NCBI RefSeq assembly: GCF_030682035.1
Contig: NZ_JAUXQZ010000045.1
Location: 124,001 to 188,000, forward strand
Direction of reading: 5' to 3'
Length of the DNA stretch: 64,000 bases
From: Brevundimonas sp.
GTDB taxonomy: Bacteria > Pseudomonadota > Alphaproteobacteria > Caulobacterales > Caulobacteraceae
Shown here: positions 25,918 through 33,127 of the stretch, piece by piece
Position numbering within the stretch: the first letter of the stretch is position 1
How the letters are laid out: each line of letters begins with the position of its first letter
Made by a program: the position numbers and the translations under genes
The notes under the pieces: generated by a model
Databases searched by the model: none
What the model saw: only the letters and a program-made list of their open reading frames with translations
Told to the model about the DNA's origin: nothing

Positions 25918-26229
25918 TCAGCGGCGCTCGACCGGCAGCCCCGCAGCCTGCCAGCCGTCGATCCCGCCTTCCAGCAGATAGACGTCGTCTGTGTCCACGG
26001 TGCTCGCAAGGGCGGAGGCGTTCATCTGCGTGCGCCGACCGCTGCGGCAGTGGAATATGACCGGCTGGCCCGGCTTGGCCGCCAGCCCGGCCGCGCCCGT
26101 TGAAAGGGGCGCGGGGTGGGCTCCGGCGATGACCAGGGCGCATTCGCCGGGCTCGCGGATGTCGACCAGTAGCGCCCCTTCTGCGACGAGGCGGGCGGCA
26201 TCTTCGGGGGTGATGGATTTGGTGCTCAT
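25918..26229 (-). CDS. Rhodanese-like sulfurtransferase
   Basis: 103 residues from the ATG at 26229, with GAGGA at good distance; the ORF to 26301 is over-extended. It is a single rhodanese domain with active-site loop HCRSGRRTQ and the LLVDIREPGE block. It transfers sulfane sulfur between thiols in the cytoplasm. It lies 110 bases after the persulfide dioxygenase gene on the same strand and completes a sulfide/persulfide detoxification set. Confidence 0.9.
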   Translation of the reverse strand: MSTKSITPEDAARLVAEGALLVDIREPGECALVIAGAHPAPLSTGAAGLAAKPGQPVIFHCRSGRRTQMNASALASTVDTDDVYLLEGGIDGWQAAGLPVERR

Positions 26230-26339
26230 GTCAGTTTCCTCGGGTTGCAGGCGGGCGGCGCCCGCCGTCTGGTGGGAACAGGTCGCGAGTAGGCGCAACA
26301 CGGCCGCGCCGGTGGCCCCTCAATCGCCAGCCTCCATCG

Positions 26340-27239
26340 TTATACGCCACGAGGTGGCTTGAACTGGTTGGCGGGTATGCGGAAGAACACACGCCCGTTG
26401 GCGTCCGGCTCGGGCAGTCGCCCGCCCCGGATATTCACCTGAAGGGCGTAGAGCATGAGGTTGGGCAGGGGCAGGTTGGCGTCGCGCTCATCACGCAATG
26501 CGACAAACTCTGCCTCCGACCGGCCTCGGCCAACGTGGATGTTGCTGGCCTTTTGTTCAGCGACTGTGCTGAAGCAGGCCGGCTCGCGGCCTCCGGGCCC
26601 GTAGTCATGACCGACGAACACGCCGGTGCGGTCCGGCAACGCCAGCAGATCCTGAATGCTGCGGTAGAGCGCCCTCGAATCACCGCCGGGAAAGTCAGCC
26701 CGGGAAGTGCCGGCGTCCGGCATCATCAGGGTATCGTGCACGAAGGCGTTGCCCCCGATCACGTAAGTAATGGATGCCATTGTGTGTCCGGGTGAGAACA
26801 TCACACGCCCCTCAAGCCCCCCCAGCTTGAAGCGCTCCTCACTCTTAAACAGCCGGTCCCAATAACGTCCGTCAACAGGGAATGCGTCGGCGAGACCGTA
26901 GAGATTTTTCCACAATATCTGAACGTCCGTGACCTTCTCGCCGATCGCCGTCGGGGCTCCCAGCTTTTCCGTCAGGTAGGGCGCCGCTGAGAAGTGGTCG
27001 GCATGCGGGTGGGTATCCAGAATCCATTCGACGGCCAGGTTGCGGTCGCGAATATGGTCGAGGATCCGGTCCGCGTTGCCGGTGGACGTTGAGGCCGCCT
27101 TCTCGTCAAAGTCCCAGACAGGATCGATGATGGCCGCAGCCCGTGTGGTCGGATCGACGATCACATACTGCCAGCTCCCGGTTTTCTGATCGTGAAAGGC
27201 CGCAATCTCGGCCCCGCCGTGGGTGAAGTATTTGATCAC
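26340..27239 (-). CDS. Persulfide dioxygenase-like MBL-fold protein (Blh/ETHE1 type)
   Basis: 299 residues from a GTG at 27239. Metal ligands are in THPHADHF, SPGHTMAS and VGHDYGPGG, the spacing of ETHE1/Blh persulfide dioxygenases, which oxidise glutathione persulfide to sulfite. The GTG overlaps the stop of the small gene upstream (GTGA). It is the stand-alone MBL domain, without the N-terminal sulfurtransferase domain of the fused Blh proteins. Genes of this type are BigR targets in other bacteria. Confidence 0.9.
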   Translation of the reverse strand: MIKYFTHGGAEIAAFHDQKTGSWQYVIVDPTTRAAAIIDPVWDFDEKAASTSTGNADRILDHIRDRNLAVEWILDTHPHADHFSAAPYLTEKLGAPTAIGEKVTDVQILWKNLYGLADAFPVDGRYWDRLFKSEERFKLGGLEGRVMFSPGHTMASITYVIGGNAFVHDTLMMPDAGTSRADFPGGDSRALYRSIQDLLALPDRTGVFVGHDYGPGGREPACFSTVAEQKASNIHVGRGRSEAEFVALRDERDANLPLPNLMLYALQVNIRGGRLPEPDANGRVFFRIPANQFKPPRGV

Positions 27240-27448
27240 CGTCTCACCTCCAATGACGGCGGCGGCTCGGCGAGCGGCGCCACCAATATCTGGCTGTAGC
27301 GGCGGCCGTCGTCACACACCGGGAAGCCCACGAAGTCTACTCCGTTGTGGTCGGCGGCCTGGCACGCCAGATCGCGGAACTCTGCCCACATGACCAGGCC
27401 GCGCGGCCCGGAGATGGCCGTCCGTCTTATTGGTGACGCTGTGGGCAT
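27236..27448 (-). CDS. 70-residue unknown protein coupled to the persulfide dioxygenase
   Basis: The ORF overlaps the dioxygenase GTG by four bases (GTGA), which argues that it is translated. The part from the internal Met (MWAEFRDLACQAADHNG) through VGFPVCDDGRRYSQ looks protein-like, while the first 19 residues do not. The true start may be 27391 or an unseen alternative. I do not recognise the family. It could be a fragment left by deletion, since its upstream neighbour SQR is also damaged. Confidence 0.45.
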   Translation of the reverse strand: MPTASPIRRTAISGPRGLVMWAEFRDLACQAADHNGVDFVGFPVCDDGRRYSQILVAPLAEPPPSLEVRR

Positions 27449-27488: not shown

Positions 27489-27692
27489 TCAACGAAACGC
27501 CGTTCCCGGCCGCACGCCCAGCCGTCGGAACAGCATGGCGGCTGGGCAGAAGCCTGTGATCGAGGCCTGAAGCAGGTTCAGGCCGATGAAGACCGTCAGC
27601 CAAATCCATGTCGGATGCACCCAGTGGGTCAGCGCCAGGCTGACAAGCACCATGAAGCCAGCGAACATCATGACGGCGCGGTCGAGGCTCAT
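27489..27692 (-). CDS. DUF2892 (YgaP-like) inner-membrane protein
   Basis: 67 residues with two hydrophobic helices (MMFAGFMVLVSLALTH and WIWLTVFIGLNLLQASITG) and the conserved TGFCP motif followed by the LFRRLGVRPG tail. Such proteins accompany rhodaneses and sulfide-handling genes and are a known part of the BigR operon. The ATG overlaps the stop of the SQR remnant (ATGA). Confidence 0.88.
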   Translation of the reverse strand: MSLDRAVMMFAGFMVLVSLALTHWVHPTWIWLTVFIGLNLLQASITGFCPAAMLFRRLGVRPGTAFR

Positions 27693-27982
27693 GCTCTCGG
27701 CTCCTGTACGGGGGTGGACCGGGTGGTGCGGCGCAGCTTGTGGGCGCCGATCAGATCGAGGGCCAGCTTTTCGTAGAGCCGCTCGGCCTGGCCCCTGCGG
27801 ACCTTGACCTCGATGGCTTCGCGCTTGCGCCCGTTCACCGCCACCAAAGGGTTGAAATGAAAGTTGTCGCCCTTCGACGCCATTACGATCCGCGCGCGTT
27901 CACGCGGGACGTGCCGCAGATCAAACGCGGCGATGGCGCGGCCCAGGCCTGCGCCCGGTATGATGATGGTGGGCCGTTCCAT
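27689..27982 (-). pseudogene. Sulfide:quinone oxidoreductase with the middle deleted in frame
   Basis: The intact reading frame (97 residues, ATG at 27982, AAGGAG seven bases upstream) fuses the SQR N-terminus (TIIIPGAGLGRAIAAFDLRH with ASKGDNFHFNPLVAVNGRKR) directly to what looks like the extreme C-terminus (RRGQAERLYEKLALDLIGAH). A normal SQR is about 400 residues, so roughly 300, including the redox cysteines and the quinone pocket, are missing. It cannot be a working SQR, but it keeps its start signal and its coupling to DUF2892, perhaps serving as the operon's translated leader. Confidence 0.75.
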
Positions 27983-28099
27983 GCGCAAACTCCTTGAGCT
28001 GTCCCCGATGCTCAATCCTGCGCCAACGGGGTCCGCCGCGCCTTGTTCCGAACAAGGCCGGGAATCGGCGCCCTGTGCACAGACCTCAGGCTTGCATTC

Positions 28100-28119
28100 A
28101 TATTAGCATGATATAATAT
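28100..28119. promoter_or_regulatory. Divergent promoter with AT-rich inverted repeat, candidate BigR-type operator
   Basis: Between the SQR remnant (minus) and the RND adaptor (plus) lies ATATTAGCATGATATAATAT, with ATATTA and TAATAT arms eight bases apart. It contains a perfect TATAAT (28112-28117) that could be the -10 of the rightward operon, and a second ATATTAG follows at 28116. This AT-rich island stands out in GC-rich DNA and sits where one ArsR repressor could control both operons. The regulator itself is the third gene of the right-hand operon. Confidence 0.55.
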
Positions 28120-28147
28120 TAGAGCAACCTTACATAAGGATTCTCGG

Positions 28148-29179
28148 ATGAAGACGCCCACGGCCCTGTTCGCCGCCCTCGCCGCCGTCCTTCTGGTCGG
28201 CGGATTGTCGGCCTGCGGCGGAGAGCCCGAGGTCGTGGTGACCGCGCCTGCGCGGGGCGAGCGCCTGACCGTGACCGAAGCCATGATCGACGCGGTCAAG
28301 CCGGCCTCAGCCGTGGTGGCCTCGCGCGATCTCGGCGAGGCGCGGGCCCGCATTCCGGGTACGCTCAGCGAGTTGAACGTGCGTGAAGGCGATACGGTGC
28401 GTCAGGGCCAGATCATCGGCCTGGTCACCGACAACCGGGTCGGGCTCGAGACGGCGGCTTATGGTGCTCAGGTCGCGGCGGCCGAGGCCGAGGCCGCGCG
28501 GGCCCGGGCTGACCTGTCGCGCATCCAGACCCTGTTCGACAAAGGCATCTACGCCCAGGCCCGGCTCGACCAGTCCGTGGCCGCCTCGCGGGCCGCCGAC
28601 GCACAGGTCAGGGCGGCGCGCGCCGTGCGCTCGGCCAGCGCCGAGACCGGGGCCCAGGGCCGCATCCTGGCCCCCACGTCCGGGCGGGTGCTCGCCGCCG
28701 ACGTGCCCGCCGGTTCGGTGGTTAACGCCGGACAGTCAGTCGCCACCATCACCGCCGGACCGCTGGTCCTGCGACTTGAACTGCCCGAGGCCCAGGGTCG
28801 CAACCTGCGGGTCGGCCAAGGCGTCATCATTTCGTCCGAGGACCTGCCCGGCGTCAGCGCGGGGACCATCGCCCAGGTCTATCCGGCCACCACCGCCGGC
28901 CAGACCATCGCGGACATCTCGGTGCCCGGCTTGAACAGCGACCGGGTTGGACAGCGCGTCACCGTCCAGGTGCCGGTGGGTCAGCGGCGCGCGCTGGTAA
29001 TTCCCCGCCGCGTCGTCGCCAGCCGCTACGGCATCGACTTCGTCCGCACCGTCGATCGCGCCGGCCACGTTAGCGAGGCGCCGGTCCAGTTGGGCGGCCC
29101 CGCCGGTGCGGATCGTGTCGAGGTCCTGTCGGGTCTCGCTGCCGGCGATGTGGTGCTGGCCCCGGAGCCCACCCGATGA
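28148..29179 (+). CDS. RND efflux periplasmic adaptor (lipoprotein)
   Basis: 343 residues. An AAGGA ribosome site precedes the ATG. The signal peptide ends in lipobox LSAC (Cys about 23). The lipoyl/barrel-sandwich halves (LNVREGDTVRQGQ and GRILAPTSGRVLAADVPAGS) flank a short coiled-coil hairpin, as in HlyD/AcrA-type adaptors. It bridges the inner-membrane pump to an outer-membrane channel, which is not encoded here. The ATGA overlap couples it to the pump gene. Confidence 0.9.
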   Translation: MKTPTALFAALAAVLLVGGLSACGGEPEVVVTAPARGERLTVTEAMIDAVKPASAVVASRDLGEARARIPGTLSELNVREGDTVRQGQIIGLVTDNRVGLETAAYGAQVAAAEAEAARARADLSRIQTLFDKGIYAQARLDQSVAASRAADAQVRAARAVRSASAETGAQGRILAPTSGRVLAADVPAGSVVNAGQSVATITAGPLVLRLELPEAQGRNLRVGQGVIISSEDLPGVSAGTIAQVYPATTAGQTIADISVPGLNSDRVGQRVTVQVPVGQRRALVIPRRVVASRYGIDFVRTVDRAGHVSEAPVQLGGPAGADRVEVLSGLAAGDVVLAPEPTR

Positions 29180-32100
29180 ACCTCGGCCTTTCCGGGCGGC
29201 TGACTCGCGCCACGCTCAACTCGCCCCTGACCCCCCTGATACTGCTGGCGGCGATCGCCGTCGGCCTGATGGCCGTGCTGTCGATCCCCCGCGAGGAGGA
29301 GCCGCAGATCAGCGTGCCCGTGGTCGACATCATGGTCGCAGCCCCCGGGCTGAGCGCCGCCGACGCGACCGAACTGGCGGCCAAGCCGCTGGAAGCCATC
29401 GTCCGCAGCATCGACGGCGTCGAGCACGTCTACACCCAGGTACAGGACGACCGGGTGATGGTCACCGCCCGTTTCGTGGTCGGCTCGGACCCCGACGACG
29501 CGGCGGTTCGCGTGCACGAGAAGGTGCGCGCCAACTACGGCTCCATTCCCACGGGCGTGTCAGAGCCGCAGATCGTCACCCGGGGCATTAATGACGTTCC
29601 GGCCGTGGTCCTGACCCTGACACCCCGCGCCGCCGCCGCCGCGCGCTGGAGCGATCAGGCCCTCTACGACGTCGCCGCCCGCCTGCGCACCGAGATCAGC
29701 AAGGTTGAGGACGTCGGCCTGACCTTCGTCGTCGGCGGCCGCCCGTCCGAGATCAGGGTGGAGCCCGATCCCGCCCGCATGGCCGCGCGCGGCGTGGCGC
29801 TGTCCTCCATCCTCGAGACTGTGGCCCAGGCCAACCGCAGCTTCCCCGCCGGCGCCTTCCGCGACCAGGGCCAGGCCGTGTCGTTGCGCTCCGGCGAACG
29901 GCTGGCCACGCCCGACGATGCGGCCCTGCTGACGGTCCGTTCTATGGCCGGCGAGCCGGTCTATCTGCGCGACGTAGCGACCGTCGTTCAGGCCCCGCGC
30001 GAGGATCAGGCCCGGGCCGCCCACTACGCGCGCGTCGGCGACGGCTGGAGCCGGACCCCGGCCGTCAGCCTGGCCGTGGCCAAGCGCCAGGGGGCCAACG
30101 CCGTGGTGGTCTCCCATGGGGTGATGCAGCGGGTCGAGGCGCTGAAGGGCACGCTGATTCCGGACGGCCTCGAGGTCGTGGTCACTCGCGACTATGGCGA
30201 GACGGCCAATGAAAAGGCCAATGAGCTGCTCATGCACCTCGGCCTCGCCACCATCTCCATCGTTATCCTGATCGGTTTCGCCATCGGCTGGCGCGAGGCC
30301 GGCGTGACGGCAGTGGTGATCCCCACGACCATTCTGCTGACCCTCTTCGCCTCCAACCTGATGGGCTACACCATCAACCGCGTCAGCCTGTTCGCCCTGA
30401 TCTTCTCGATCGGCATCCTCGTCGACGACGCCATCGTGATGATCGAGAACATCGCCCGCCACTGGGCCATGAATGACGACCGCAGCCGCGCCCAGGCCAC
30501 CGTCGAGGCCGTGGCCGAGGTGGGCAACCCGACCGTGGTCGCCACCCTGACCGTGGTCGCCGCCCTGCTGCCCATGCTGTTCGTCTCGGGTCTGATGGGC
30601 CCCTATATGGCGCCGATCCCGGTCAACGCCTCGGCGGCCATGGTCTTCTCTTTCTTCGTCGCCGTGGTCATCGCGCCCTGGCTGATGATCCGTCTGGCCC
30701 GCAAGACCCTGGCCGGAGACACGGGTCACGAGCACGGGGAGGGGATGCTGGGCCGCCTTTATCGCAAGGTTGCGACGCCCGTGATCCGCTCGCGCCGCAG
30801 CGCCTGGACCTTCCTGATCGTGGTCGGTGTCGCCACCCTGCTCGCCATGTCGATGTTCGGCTTCCGGGCCGTGCCGGTGAAGCTGCTGCCGTTCGACAAC
30901 AAGTCCGAGCTGCAGGTCGTGCTGGACATGCCCGAAGGGACCAGCCTCGAGACCACCGAACGCACCCTGGCCGGGGCCGCCGCCGTGGCCGGGACCTTGG
31001 CCGAGGTCGAGTCGCTGGAAAGCTATGCCGGAACCGCCGCGCCGTTCAACTTCAACGGCTTGGTGCGCCACTATTTCCTGCGCGCCGGGGCCGAGCAGGG
31101 CGACCTTGCGGTGATGCTGGCCCCCAAGGGTGAACGCAGCCGCAGCAGCCACGCCATCGCCCTCGACCTGCGCCGCAGTCTGGCCGACCTGCCGCTGCCG
31201 GCGGGGGCCTCAATCAAGGTGGTCGAGGCCCCGCCGGGACCGCCGGTGTTGGCGACCCTGCTGGCCGAGGTCTACGGCCCCGATCCCGCCACCCGCCGCG
31301 CCGTGGCCGCCGAACTGGAGACCCTGTTCCGGGCCGAGCCCTCGGTGGTCGACGTGGACAACAGCTACGGCGTCCGCCGTCCGGTCCTGCGCCTGATCCC
31401 GGACCGCGAGAAGATCGAGCGATTCGGCCTGTCCGAACGCGAGGTGCACGACTCCATCGCCGCCGTCATGGGCGGCCAGGTGCTCGGCTACGCCGAGCGC
31501 GGAGACGAGCGGACCCCTCTGGAGATCGCCGTGCGCCTGCCGCAGTCGGCCCGGACCTGGAACGAACAGATGGCTGTCATGCCCGTTGCCATGACCACGA
31601 TCGACGGCGGCCGGCGGCTGGTCGAACTGGGCGAGGTGGTCGAGGCCCGGCGCGAGCTGGCCGGCTGGCCCGTCTATCGCCGCGACGGCCGGGCCGCGGA
31701 GATGGTCACCGCCGAACTGGCCGGCCAGTTCGAAGCCCCGATCTACGGCATCATGGCCATCGACGCGGCCATCAAGGCCCACGACTGGAAGGGGCTGCCG
31801 CGTCCCGAGGTTCGCCTCAACGGCCAGCCGACGGACGAGACGGTCCCCACCGTGCTGTGGGACGGCGAATGGGAGATCACCTGGGTGACCTTCCGCGACA
31901 TGGGCGCCGCCTTCGGCGTGGCCCTGCTGGGGATCTATGTTCTGGTCGTCGCCCAGTTCAAGGATTTCCGCATTCCGCTGGTGATCCTGACGCCCATCCC
32001 CCTGACCCTGATCGGCATCGTCATCGGCCACATGCTGTTCGGCGCGCCCTTCACCGCCACCTCGATGATCGGCTTCATCGCCCTGGCGGGGATCATCGTG

Positions 32101-32406
32101 CGAAACTCGATCCTGCTGGTCGACTTCATTCGCCACGCCCGAACACCGGGACGGCCGCTGCGCGAGGTTCTGCTGGAGGCGGGCGCCATCCGCTTCAAGC
32201 CCATCCTGCTCACCGCCCTGGCCGCCATGATCGGCGCTGCGGTCATTCTGTTCGATCCGATTTTCCAGGGATTGGCGATTTCCCTGCTGTTCGGTCTGAT
32301 TTCCTCCACGATTCTGACGGTGCTGGTGATCCCGGCCATCTATATCGCGTTGAAGGACGACGGTCGGCCCCTGGCTGCGCCCGGGCCCGCGGAAGAGACG
32401 CCATGA
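29176..32406 (+). CDS. RND-family efflux pump permease (AcrB/MexF-like)
   Basis: 1076 residues with the twelve-helix RND plan. TM4 carries the proton-relay block SIGILVDDAIVMIENIARHW, with adjacent aspartates as in drug-type (HAE) RNDs, unlike the single-Asp heavy-metal form of the CzcA protein later in the window. Large periplasmic loops follow TM1 and TM7. The exported substrate is unknown; control by a BigR-like repressor suggests a reactive sulfur, oxidant or electrophile signal. The stop overlaps the arsR start (ATGA). Confidence 0.9.
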   Translation: MNLGLSGRLTRATLNSPLTPLILLAAIAVGLMAVLSIPREEEPQISVPVVDIMVAAPGLSAADATELAAKPLEAIVRSIDGVEHVYTQVQDDRVMVTARFVVGSDPDDAAVRVHEKVRANYGSIPTGVSEPQIVTRGINDVPAVVLTLTPRAAAAARWSDQALYDVAARLRTEISKVEDVGLTFVVGGRPSEIRVEPDPARMAARGVALSSILETVAQANRSFPAGAFRDQGQAVSLRSGERLATPDDAALLTVRSMAGEPVYLRDVATVVQAPREDQARAAHYARVGDGWSRTPAVSLAVAKRQGANAVVVSHGVMQRVEALKGTLIPDGLEVVVTRDYGETANEKANELLMHLGLATISIVILIGFAIGWREAGVTAVVIPTTILLTLFASNLMGYTINRVSLFALIFSIGILVDDAIVMIENIARHWAMNDDRSRAQATVEAVAEVGNPTVVATLTVVAALLPMLFVSGLMGPYMAPIPVNASAAMVFSFFVAVVIAPWLMIRLARKTLAGDTGHEHGEGMLGRLYRKVATPVIRSRRSAWTFLIVVGVATLLAMSMFGFRAVPVKLLPFDNKSELQVVLDMPEGTSLETTERTLAGAAAVAGTLAEVESLESYAGTAAPFNFNGLVRHYFLRAGAEQGDLAVMLAPKGERSRSSHAIALDLRRSLADLPLPAGASIKVVEAPPGPPVLATLLAEVYGPDPATRRAVAAELETLFRAEPSVVDVDNSYGVRRPVLRLIPDREKIERFGLSEREVHDSIAAVMGGQVLGYAERGDERTPLEIAVRLPQSARTWNEQMAVMPVAMTTIDGGRRLVELGEVVEARRELAGWPVYRRDGRAAEMVTAELAGQFEAPIYGIMAIDAAIKAHDWKGLPRPEVRLNGQPTDETVPTVLWDGEWEITWVTFRDMGAAFGVALLGIYVLVVAQFKDFRIPLVILTPIPLTLIGIVIGHMLFGAPFTATSMIGFIALAGIIVRNSILLVDFIRHARTPGRPLREVLLEAGAIRFKPILLTALAAMIGAAVILFDPIFQGLAISLLFGLISSTILTVLVIPAIYIALKDDGRPLAAPGPAEETP

Positions 32407-32747
32407 TCGACGCCTTGCCTATGCCGAACGCCGCCGCCCTCGCCGAGCTCGAGGCCAGCGCCGCTCCCGCGGCCCGGCTGTTGCGGCTGTTCGCCAACGA
32501 GCAGCGACTGATGCTGATGTGCCGGCTGAGCGAAGGTGAGTGCGCGGTCGGTGAGTTGGCCGGCTATGCGGGCCTGTCGCAGTCAGCCTGTTCGCAGCAT
32601 CTCGCCCGCTTGCGCATAGCCGGCGTCATCGCTCCGCGACGCGAGGCCCAGACCATCTACTACGGCATCTCCGATCCAGCCGCGGCCCGCCTCATCGCCC
32701 TGCTATGCGACATCTACCGCGATAAACCCGAGGACCAGACATCATGA
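32403..32747 (+). CDS. ArsR-family repressor, BigR/SqrR-like two-cysteine type
   Basis: 114 residues from the ATG at 32403; the longer track ORF is over-extended. The winged helix reads LSQSACSQHLARLRIAGVIA and REAQTIYYGI. Cysteines at about 40 (LMCRLSEGE) and 102 (ALLCDIYR) fall where BigR/SqrR have their persulfide-sensing pair (C41/C107 type), whereas the metal-site ELCVCDL motif is absent. It is therefore a likely persulfide or redox sensor (inference). Overlaps couple it to the pump and the DUF302 gene. Confidence 0.85.
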   Translation: MIDALPMPNAAALAELEASAAPAARLLRLFANEQRLMLMCRLSEGECAVGELAGYAGLSQSACSQHLARLRIAGVIAPRREAQTIYYGISDPAAARLIALLCDIYRDKPEDQTS

Positions 32748-33127
32748 CCTATTTCCATGCCCGCACGATCGAGGGCGACTTCGAGGCCGTCGTCGAGCGC
32801 ACCCGCGCGGCGCTTCAAAAGCACGGCTTCGGCGTCCTCACCGAGATCGACGTCCAGGCCACGCTCAAGGCGAAGATCGGGGAGAATTTCCGCCCTTACC
32901 GCATCCTCGGCGCCTGCAACCCCGTCATGGCCCACGAAGCCCTGAATATGGAGCCGCACGTCGGGGTCATGCTGCCCTGCAACGTCGTCGTCCAGCAGAC
33001 CGATTGCGGCGTCGAGGTGTTCGCCGTCGACCCCGCCGCCTCGATGAGCGCTATCGACAATACCGAACTGCTGGGCCACGCGCGGACGGTGGGTGAGCAT
33101 TTGCGTTCGGCTGTCGATGAGATTTGA
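32744..33127 (+). CDS. DUF302 family protein
   Basis: 127 residues with the DUF302 pattern (TIEGDFEAVVERTRAALQKH, LTEIDVQATLKAKIG, LGACNPVMAHEAL, GVMLPCNVVVQ). There is no signal peptide, so it is probably cytoplasmic. The biochemical role of the family is unknown; members often sit in oxidative or sulfur stress operons. It is the last gene of the adaptor-pump-ArsR operon (ATGA overlap). The four cysteines may matter in redox sensing. Confidence 0.88.
   Translation: MTYFHARTIEGDFEAVVERTRAALQKHGFGVLTEIDVQATLKAKIGENFRPYRILGACNPVMAHEALNMEPHVGVMLPCNVVVQQTDCGVEVFAVDPAASMSAIDNTELLGHARTVGEHLRSAVDEI

Follow-up and report, generated by a model that had tools for sequence, protein, structure and literature searches.

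What is a frame of 97 codons, made up of the two ends of an SQR gene, doing directly in front of a gene for a DUF2892 membrane protein? The frame lies in a stretch of Brevundimonas DNA of 64,000 nucleotides (the window), and a sequence-only reading had offered two answers: either a recent deletion kept for translational coupling of the downstream sulfide genes, or a mini-protein with a new role. Answering this requires knowing what was lost from the gene, how selection has since acted on what remains, and which features of the locus were already present in its intact relatives.

An SQR gene reduced to its two ends

The remnant, its lesion and its partner gene comprise the following features.

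27982 (ATG) to 27689 (TGA), minus strand: remnant of SQR in which the N- and C-terminal ends are joined, 97 codons/97 residues
27806 to 27982, minus strand: N-terminal part of SQR, codons 1 to about 62 of the ancestral gene with 3 of them missing
27689 to 27805, minus strand: C-terminal part of SQR, from ancestral codon 400 through the stop, identity up to 87%
27990 to 27995, minus strand: AAGGAG, 7 nt before the ATG, the remnant's ribosome-binding site, inherited from the intact gene
27804 to 27807, minus strand: joint of the 1,011-nt deletion, with the 2-nt microhomology CA at 27805-27806, read by eye from alignments
27853 to 27854, minus strand: separate 9-nt in-frame deletion (3 codons), by which the TPS of FHFTPSNPW is lost
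27489 to 27692, minus strand: DUF2892 / YgaP-like TM protein of 67 aa, partner of SQR (Pfam PF11127, E=3e-13)
27701 to 27705, minus strand: AGGAG ribosome-binding site of DUF2892, within the tail of the remnant; AGGA or AGGAG in most relatives

The translation of the remnant reads MERPTIIIPGAGLGRAIAAFDLRHVPRERARIVMASKGDNFHFNPLVAVNGRKREAIEVKVRRGQAERLYEKLALDLIGAHKLRRTTRSTPVQEPRA. Compared with intact SQRs of the same genus, residues 1-63 show roughly 60-75% identity and residues 60-97 up to 87%, and in the strongest relatives these two segments match places about 1 kb apart within one open frame. At the level of sequence, this homology to same-genus SQRs is unambiguous and extends over both ends, as the sequence-only reading had supposed. 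A PDB search matches the remnant to one SQR at both ends as well, although weakly (E about 0.02), with residues 6-63 falling on SQR residues 7-67, and residues 60-85 on SQR residues 404-429. Pfam and NCBIfam profiles run against the 97 residues returned no family above cut-off; what they did return were sub-threshold matches to Hjc, rejected as due to chance. The AAGGAG site and the ATG are indeed in place, and the stop codon of the remnant overlaps the start of DUF2892 by four bases, as ATGA (27689-27692).

In a search of 390 family genomes, this SQR was found to be encoded in 30 of 130 other Brevundimonas genomes, and the 18 relatives' genes taken for analysis are all full length, without internal stops. 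Their loci, checked in detail, confirm that intact copies occupy the same place, where DUF302-RND-MFP is followed by a divergent SQR-DUF2892 pair in the loci examined, and likewise in the window; the contigs of a few relatives end before all genes of the locus are visible. The intact SQR of 437 aa (e.g. G151:C1:1711138-1712448) has in common with the remnant its locus, start, ribosome site, the N-terminal about 60 and C-terminal 38 residues, and the ATGA overlap with DUF2892. The remnant differs in that 340 of the 437 residues are gone, a glycine of the FAD motif is replaced, and the FNR-like box upstream is altered.

Pairwise DNA alignments with five relatives place the lesion. Each comparison shows a gap of the same 1,011 nt (337 codons) between GAGGT and CAAGGTC, which together with the three codons lost separately accounts for the in-frame loss of some 300 residues noted earlier and gives the breakpoint that alignment to full SQRs was meant to find. 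Both deletions are multiples of three, such that the frame remains open and lacks the frame break that is usual, but not required, in a pseudogene. The GASCFGP and NAICLADFGD stretches of the relatives' SQR, conserved cysteine-bearing parts of the active site with a catalytic role, fall inside the deleted 337 codons. With most of the fold and this segment gone, the remnant cannot be an SQR by its sequence, and presumably not by its activity either; quinone-linked sulfide oxidation by its product is expected to be absent. No other SQR was found in this genome by a protein search at E up to 10, and none of the 19 loci returned by a Pyr_redox_2 search resembles one, which rejects, at the sensitivity used, the survival of an SQR elsewhere in the genome. 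A close plasmid-borne copy of the locus was likewise rejected: the plasmids searched match neither the remnant nor DUF2892, and their only matches are to the dioxygenase gene, mostly at 65-69%.

Selection on the remnant and on its partner

Of 82 positions that could be compared, 57 are invariant among the 18 relatives, and the remnant differs at seven of these, where each relative held out in turn differs at none or one. Among these seven are G15R in GxGxxG, G27R, a P to R exchange and, further along the N-terminal part, W to L and W to G; L9P (in the region of the FAD-binding motif) and L26P hit near-invariant positions. The dinucleotide-binding motif reads GAGLGR, its third glycine, present in all 18 relatives, being replaced. 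In a codon model with a separate rate for the branch of the remnant, dN/dS is 0.176 against 0.038 elsewhere, about five times background, figures that are approximate because the tree used has weak internal support. A single rate is rejected (2dlnL about 10.1), and so is a dN/dS of 1 on the remnant branch (about 11.3). This value is what one would expect if the gene worked along most of the branch and evolved neutrally over about 14%, or the last seventh or so, of its length; weak constraint throughout would also give it. The branch of DUF2892, with a dN/dS of 0.039, shows purifying selection and no relaxation.

The remnant resembles ordinary internal-deletion pseudogenes in three respects: relatives have the gene intact at this locus, the deletion is large, and selection is relaxed, as its dN/dS and invariant-site changes show. 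Unlike them, it has kept an open frame that runs from the original start to the original stop.

DUF2892 is found at 57% identity or more in the same 30 SQR-bearing genomes of the genus, and without a matched SQR in only two others, G077 and G126 (from a manual count of the intersection). The G126 copy is preceded by an SQR fragment (residues 277-424) and by a thioredoxin-like gene. The G077 copy has an IS-like transposase frame upstream and CTG as its first codon, so that it may itself be decaying.

Neighbouring genes and upstream region

On both sides of the SQR-DUF2892 pair, and in the region between the divergent genes, the following features were identified.

28041 to 28057, minus strand: altered FNR/FixK-like box, CCTTGTTCGGAACAAGG; relatives mostly CCTTGATNNNNATCAAGG
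28091 to 28128, no strand assigned: inverted repeat with two CTAATAT... motifs in the SQR-MFP intergenic region; conserved in most relatives and retained here
28148 to 29179, plus strand: RND adaptor (MFP), divergent from SQR and next to it in relatives too
29176 to 32406, plus strand: RND transporter
32403 to 32747, plus strand: ArsR-family regulator, best PDB matches SqrR (6o8l set) and HlyU
32744 to 33127, plus strand: DUF302 protein
27236 to 27448, minus strand: small ORF of 70 codons (orf70), which shares a GTGA overlap with the start of the dioxygenase gene; absent from this position in relatives
26340 to 27239, minus strand: MBL-fold persulfide-dioxygenase-like protein (NCBIfam NF040641, 458.7 bits over residues 10-293, below the cut-off of 625)
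25918 to 26301, minus strand: rhodanese (Pfam PF00581), start codon probably internal, at MSTKS

An FNR/FixK-type box (TTGAY-N4-RTCAA) lies 72-79 nt before the SQR start in 17 of the 18 relatives. In the window it reads TTGTTCGGAACAA, one base shorter and with both half-sites changed; in this form it is a 17-nt near-perfect palindrome with different spacing. The CTAATAT inverted repeat is probably the operator of the ArsR-type regulator, whose gene lies at 32403-32747 and which may control the SQR locus. A promoter scan, which is uninformative for this group, found no sigma-70-like site. The MFP-RND-ArsR-DUF302 cluster (28148-33127) is kept beside SQR across the genus, with overlaps of 4 bases between RND and ArsR and between ArsR and DUF302.

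A comparable association is known from Azospira suillum PS, where SQR lies within an RND efflux operon (Dsui_3440-3443; PMC5358917). There too, SQR is linked to an RND transporter and an MFP subunit, and sulfide also induces a DUF2892 gene, located elsewhere in that genome; that SQR is, however, intact and inside the operon rather than divergent from it (PMC5358917). When that SQR was deleted experimentally, perchlorate-dependent sulfide oxidation was unaffected (PMC5358917). Our literature searches returned nothing that joins SqrR with SQR and RND and, judged by title, nothing on the present locus among the work on SQR and Brevundimonas.

Downstream, DNA similarity to the relatives stops at the end of DUF2892, and orf70, the dioxygenase and the rhodanese (25918-27448) adjoin DUF2892 only in this genome. 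Relatives that have the latter two genes carry them elsewhere (e.g. G098:C9), at about 75-80% and 72% identity. The ancestral operon therefore consisted of just SQR and DUF2892, and a longer series of sulfur genes headed by the remnant is conceivable in this genome alone. Homologues of orf70 (about 50% identity) are small ORFs of other genus members in unrelated contexts. Its interpretation as a remnant of a Blh N-terminal domain was rejected: it has no PDB match and no match to such a family, and its relatives are small ORFs located elsewhere.

Decay or a translated leader

So is the remnant held open by selection, as a translated leader whose ribosomes, on terminating at the TGA, would start again on the DUF2892 ATG that overlaps it? 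This arrangement has much of what one would look for in a coupling leader: an ATGA or GTGA overlap with an AGGA or AGGAG site in the window and in most intact relatives, two indels that are both in frame, and an AGGAG site of DUF2892 that is predicted to be partly paired (mean unpaired 0.21-0.38). Since most intact relatives have the overlap and the AGGA/AGGAG, both are inherited and not new, and the predicted pairing resembles that of the relatives' sites. Two random indels would both fall in frame with a chance of 1 in 9, and under simulated neutral change with 10 replacements, the 82 codons stay free of stops in about 70% of trials; these figures agree with chance as well as with selection for a non-polar loss. 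Furthermore, DUF2892 has its own ribosome site, and its persistence behind another gene in G126 and behind a transposase in G077 means that an SQR leader is not indispensable. The predicted pairing of its AGGAG site is only partial. Translation of DUF2892 may depend on that of the remnant, but we regard upkeep of the remnant as a leader as the less likely outcome, if one to be taken seriously. That translation of the gutted frame sets the level of DUF2892, making this a natural non-polar deletion that preserves coupling, we consider unlikely, and our literature search found no direct precedent for a gutted gene kept for coupling. Of the coupling originally proposed, the possibility stands; its extension to a set of downstream sulfide genes is not supported, as DUF2892 was the only ancestral gene downstream.

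A new function of the 97-residue protein, for instance in binding FAD-less membrane partners or DUF2892, would fit the open frame, a dN/dS below 1, and the C-terminal part being the better conserved half. The elevated dN/dS and the seven invariant residues changed nevertheless disfavour it; glycine 15 of GxGxxG, leucines 9 and 26 and two invariant tryptophans are among the residues replaced. Moreover, the protein has no family match, and neither the 390 family genomes nor a GTDB scan yielded another genome with this fusion, which makes such a role very improbable. More improbable still is that a full-length SQR gene was collapsed in assembly. The assembly does consist of 48 contigs, with an estimated contamination of 5.4%, but after a collapse the two ends should be unharmed, and here they carry seven invariant-residue changes and a second deletion; the missing middle of SQR is found nowhere in the assembly, and the 203-kb contig that contains the joint shows conserved synteny to either side of it. 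An allelic-exchange scar would likewise have the form of two gene ends joined in frame. No cloning site was seen at the joint, however, and such constructs would not bring with them the 9-nt loss, the numerous replacements or the change in the box upstream, so that we give a laboratory deletion allele practically no credence.

We therefore read the locus, with considerable confidence, as a naturally decaying SQR gene, reduced in frame, beside a DUF2892 gene that is still constrained. The loss of the FNR-like box, which 17 of the 18 relatives have, also speaks for decay. Against it count a frame that two indels, each a multiple of three, have left open, the retained start, ribosome site and overlap, and a dN/dS below 1, with which weak constraint on the remnant would be compatible too. 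On this reading, the course of events began with an SQR-DUF2892 operon divergent from the RND efflux operon, from which illegitimate recombination at the 2-nt match removed 337 codons of SQR in frame. The 9-nt loss and substitutions at residues needed by the enzyme, visible in the alignments, accompanied this large deletion. Because its ribosome site, start and upstream repeat are kept, the remnant is probably still transcribed and translated; DUF2892 downstream is still constrained and has its own ribosome site. The in-frame loss was either of the tolerable kind, as it leaves DUF2892 translation undisturbed, or in frame by chance.

In general terms, this case is ordinary gene decay caught midway. 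It offers a snapshot of enzyme loss in which the body of the gene is gone while its small partner, DUF2892, is still fully constrained, and it suggests that this YgaP-type membrane protein, the companion of SQR across the genus, has a value of its own without SQR.
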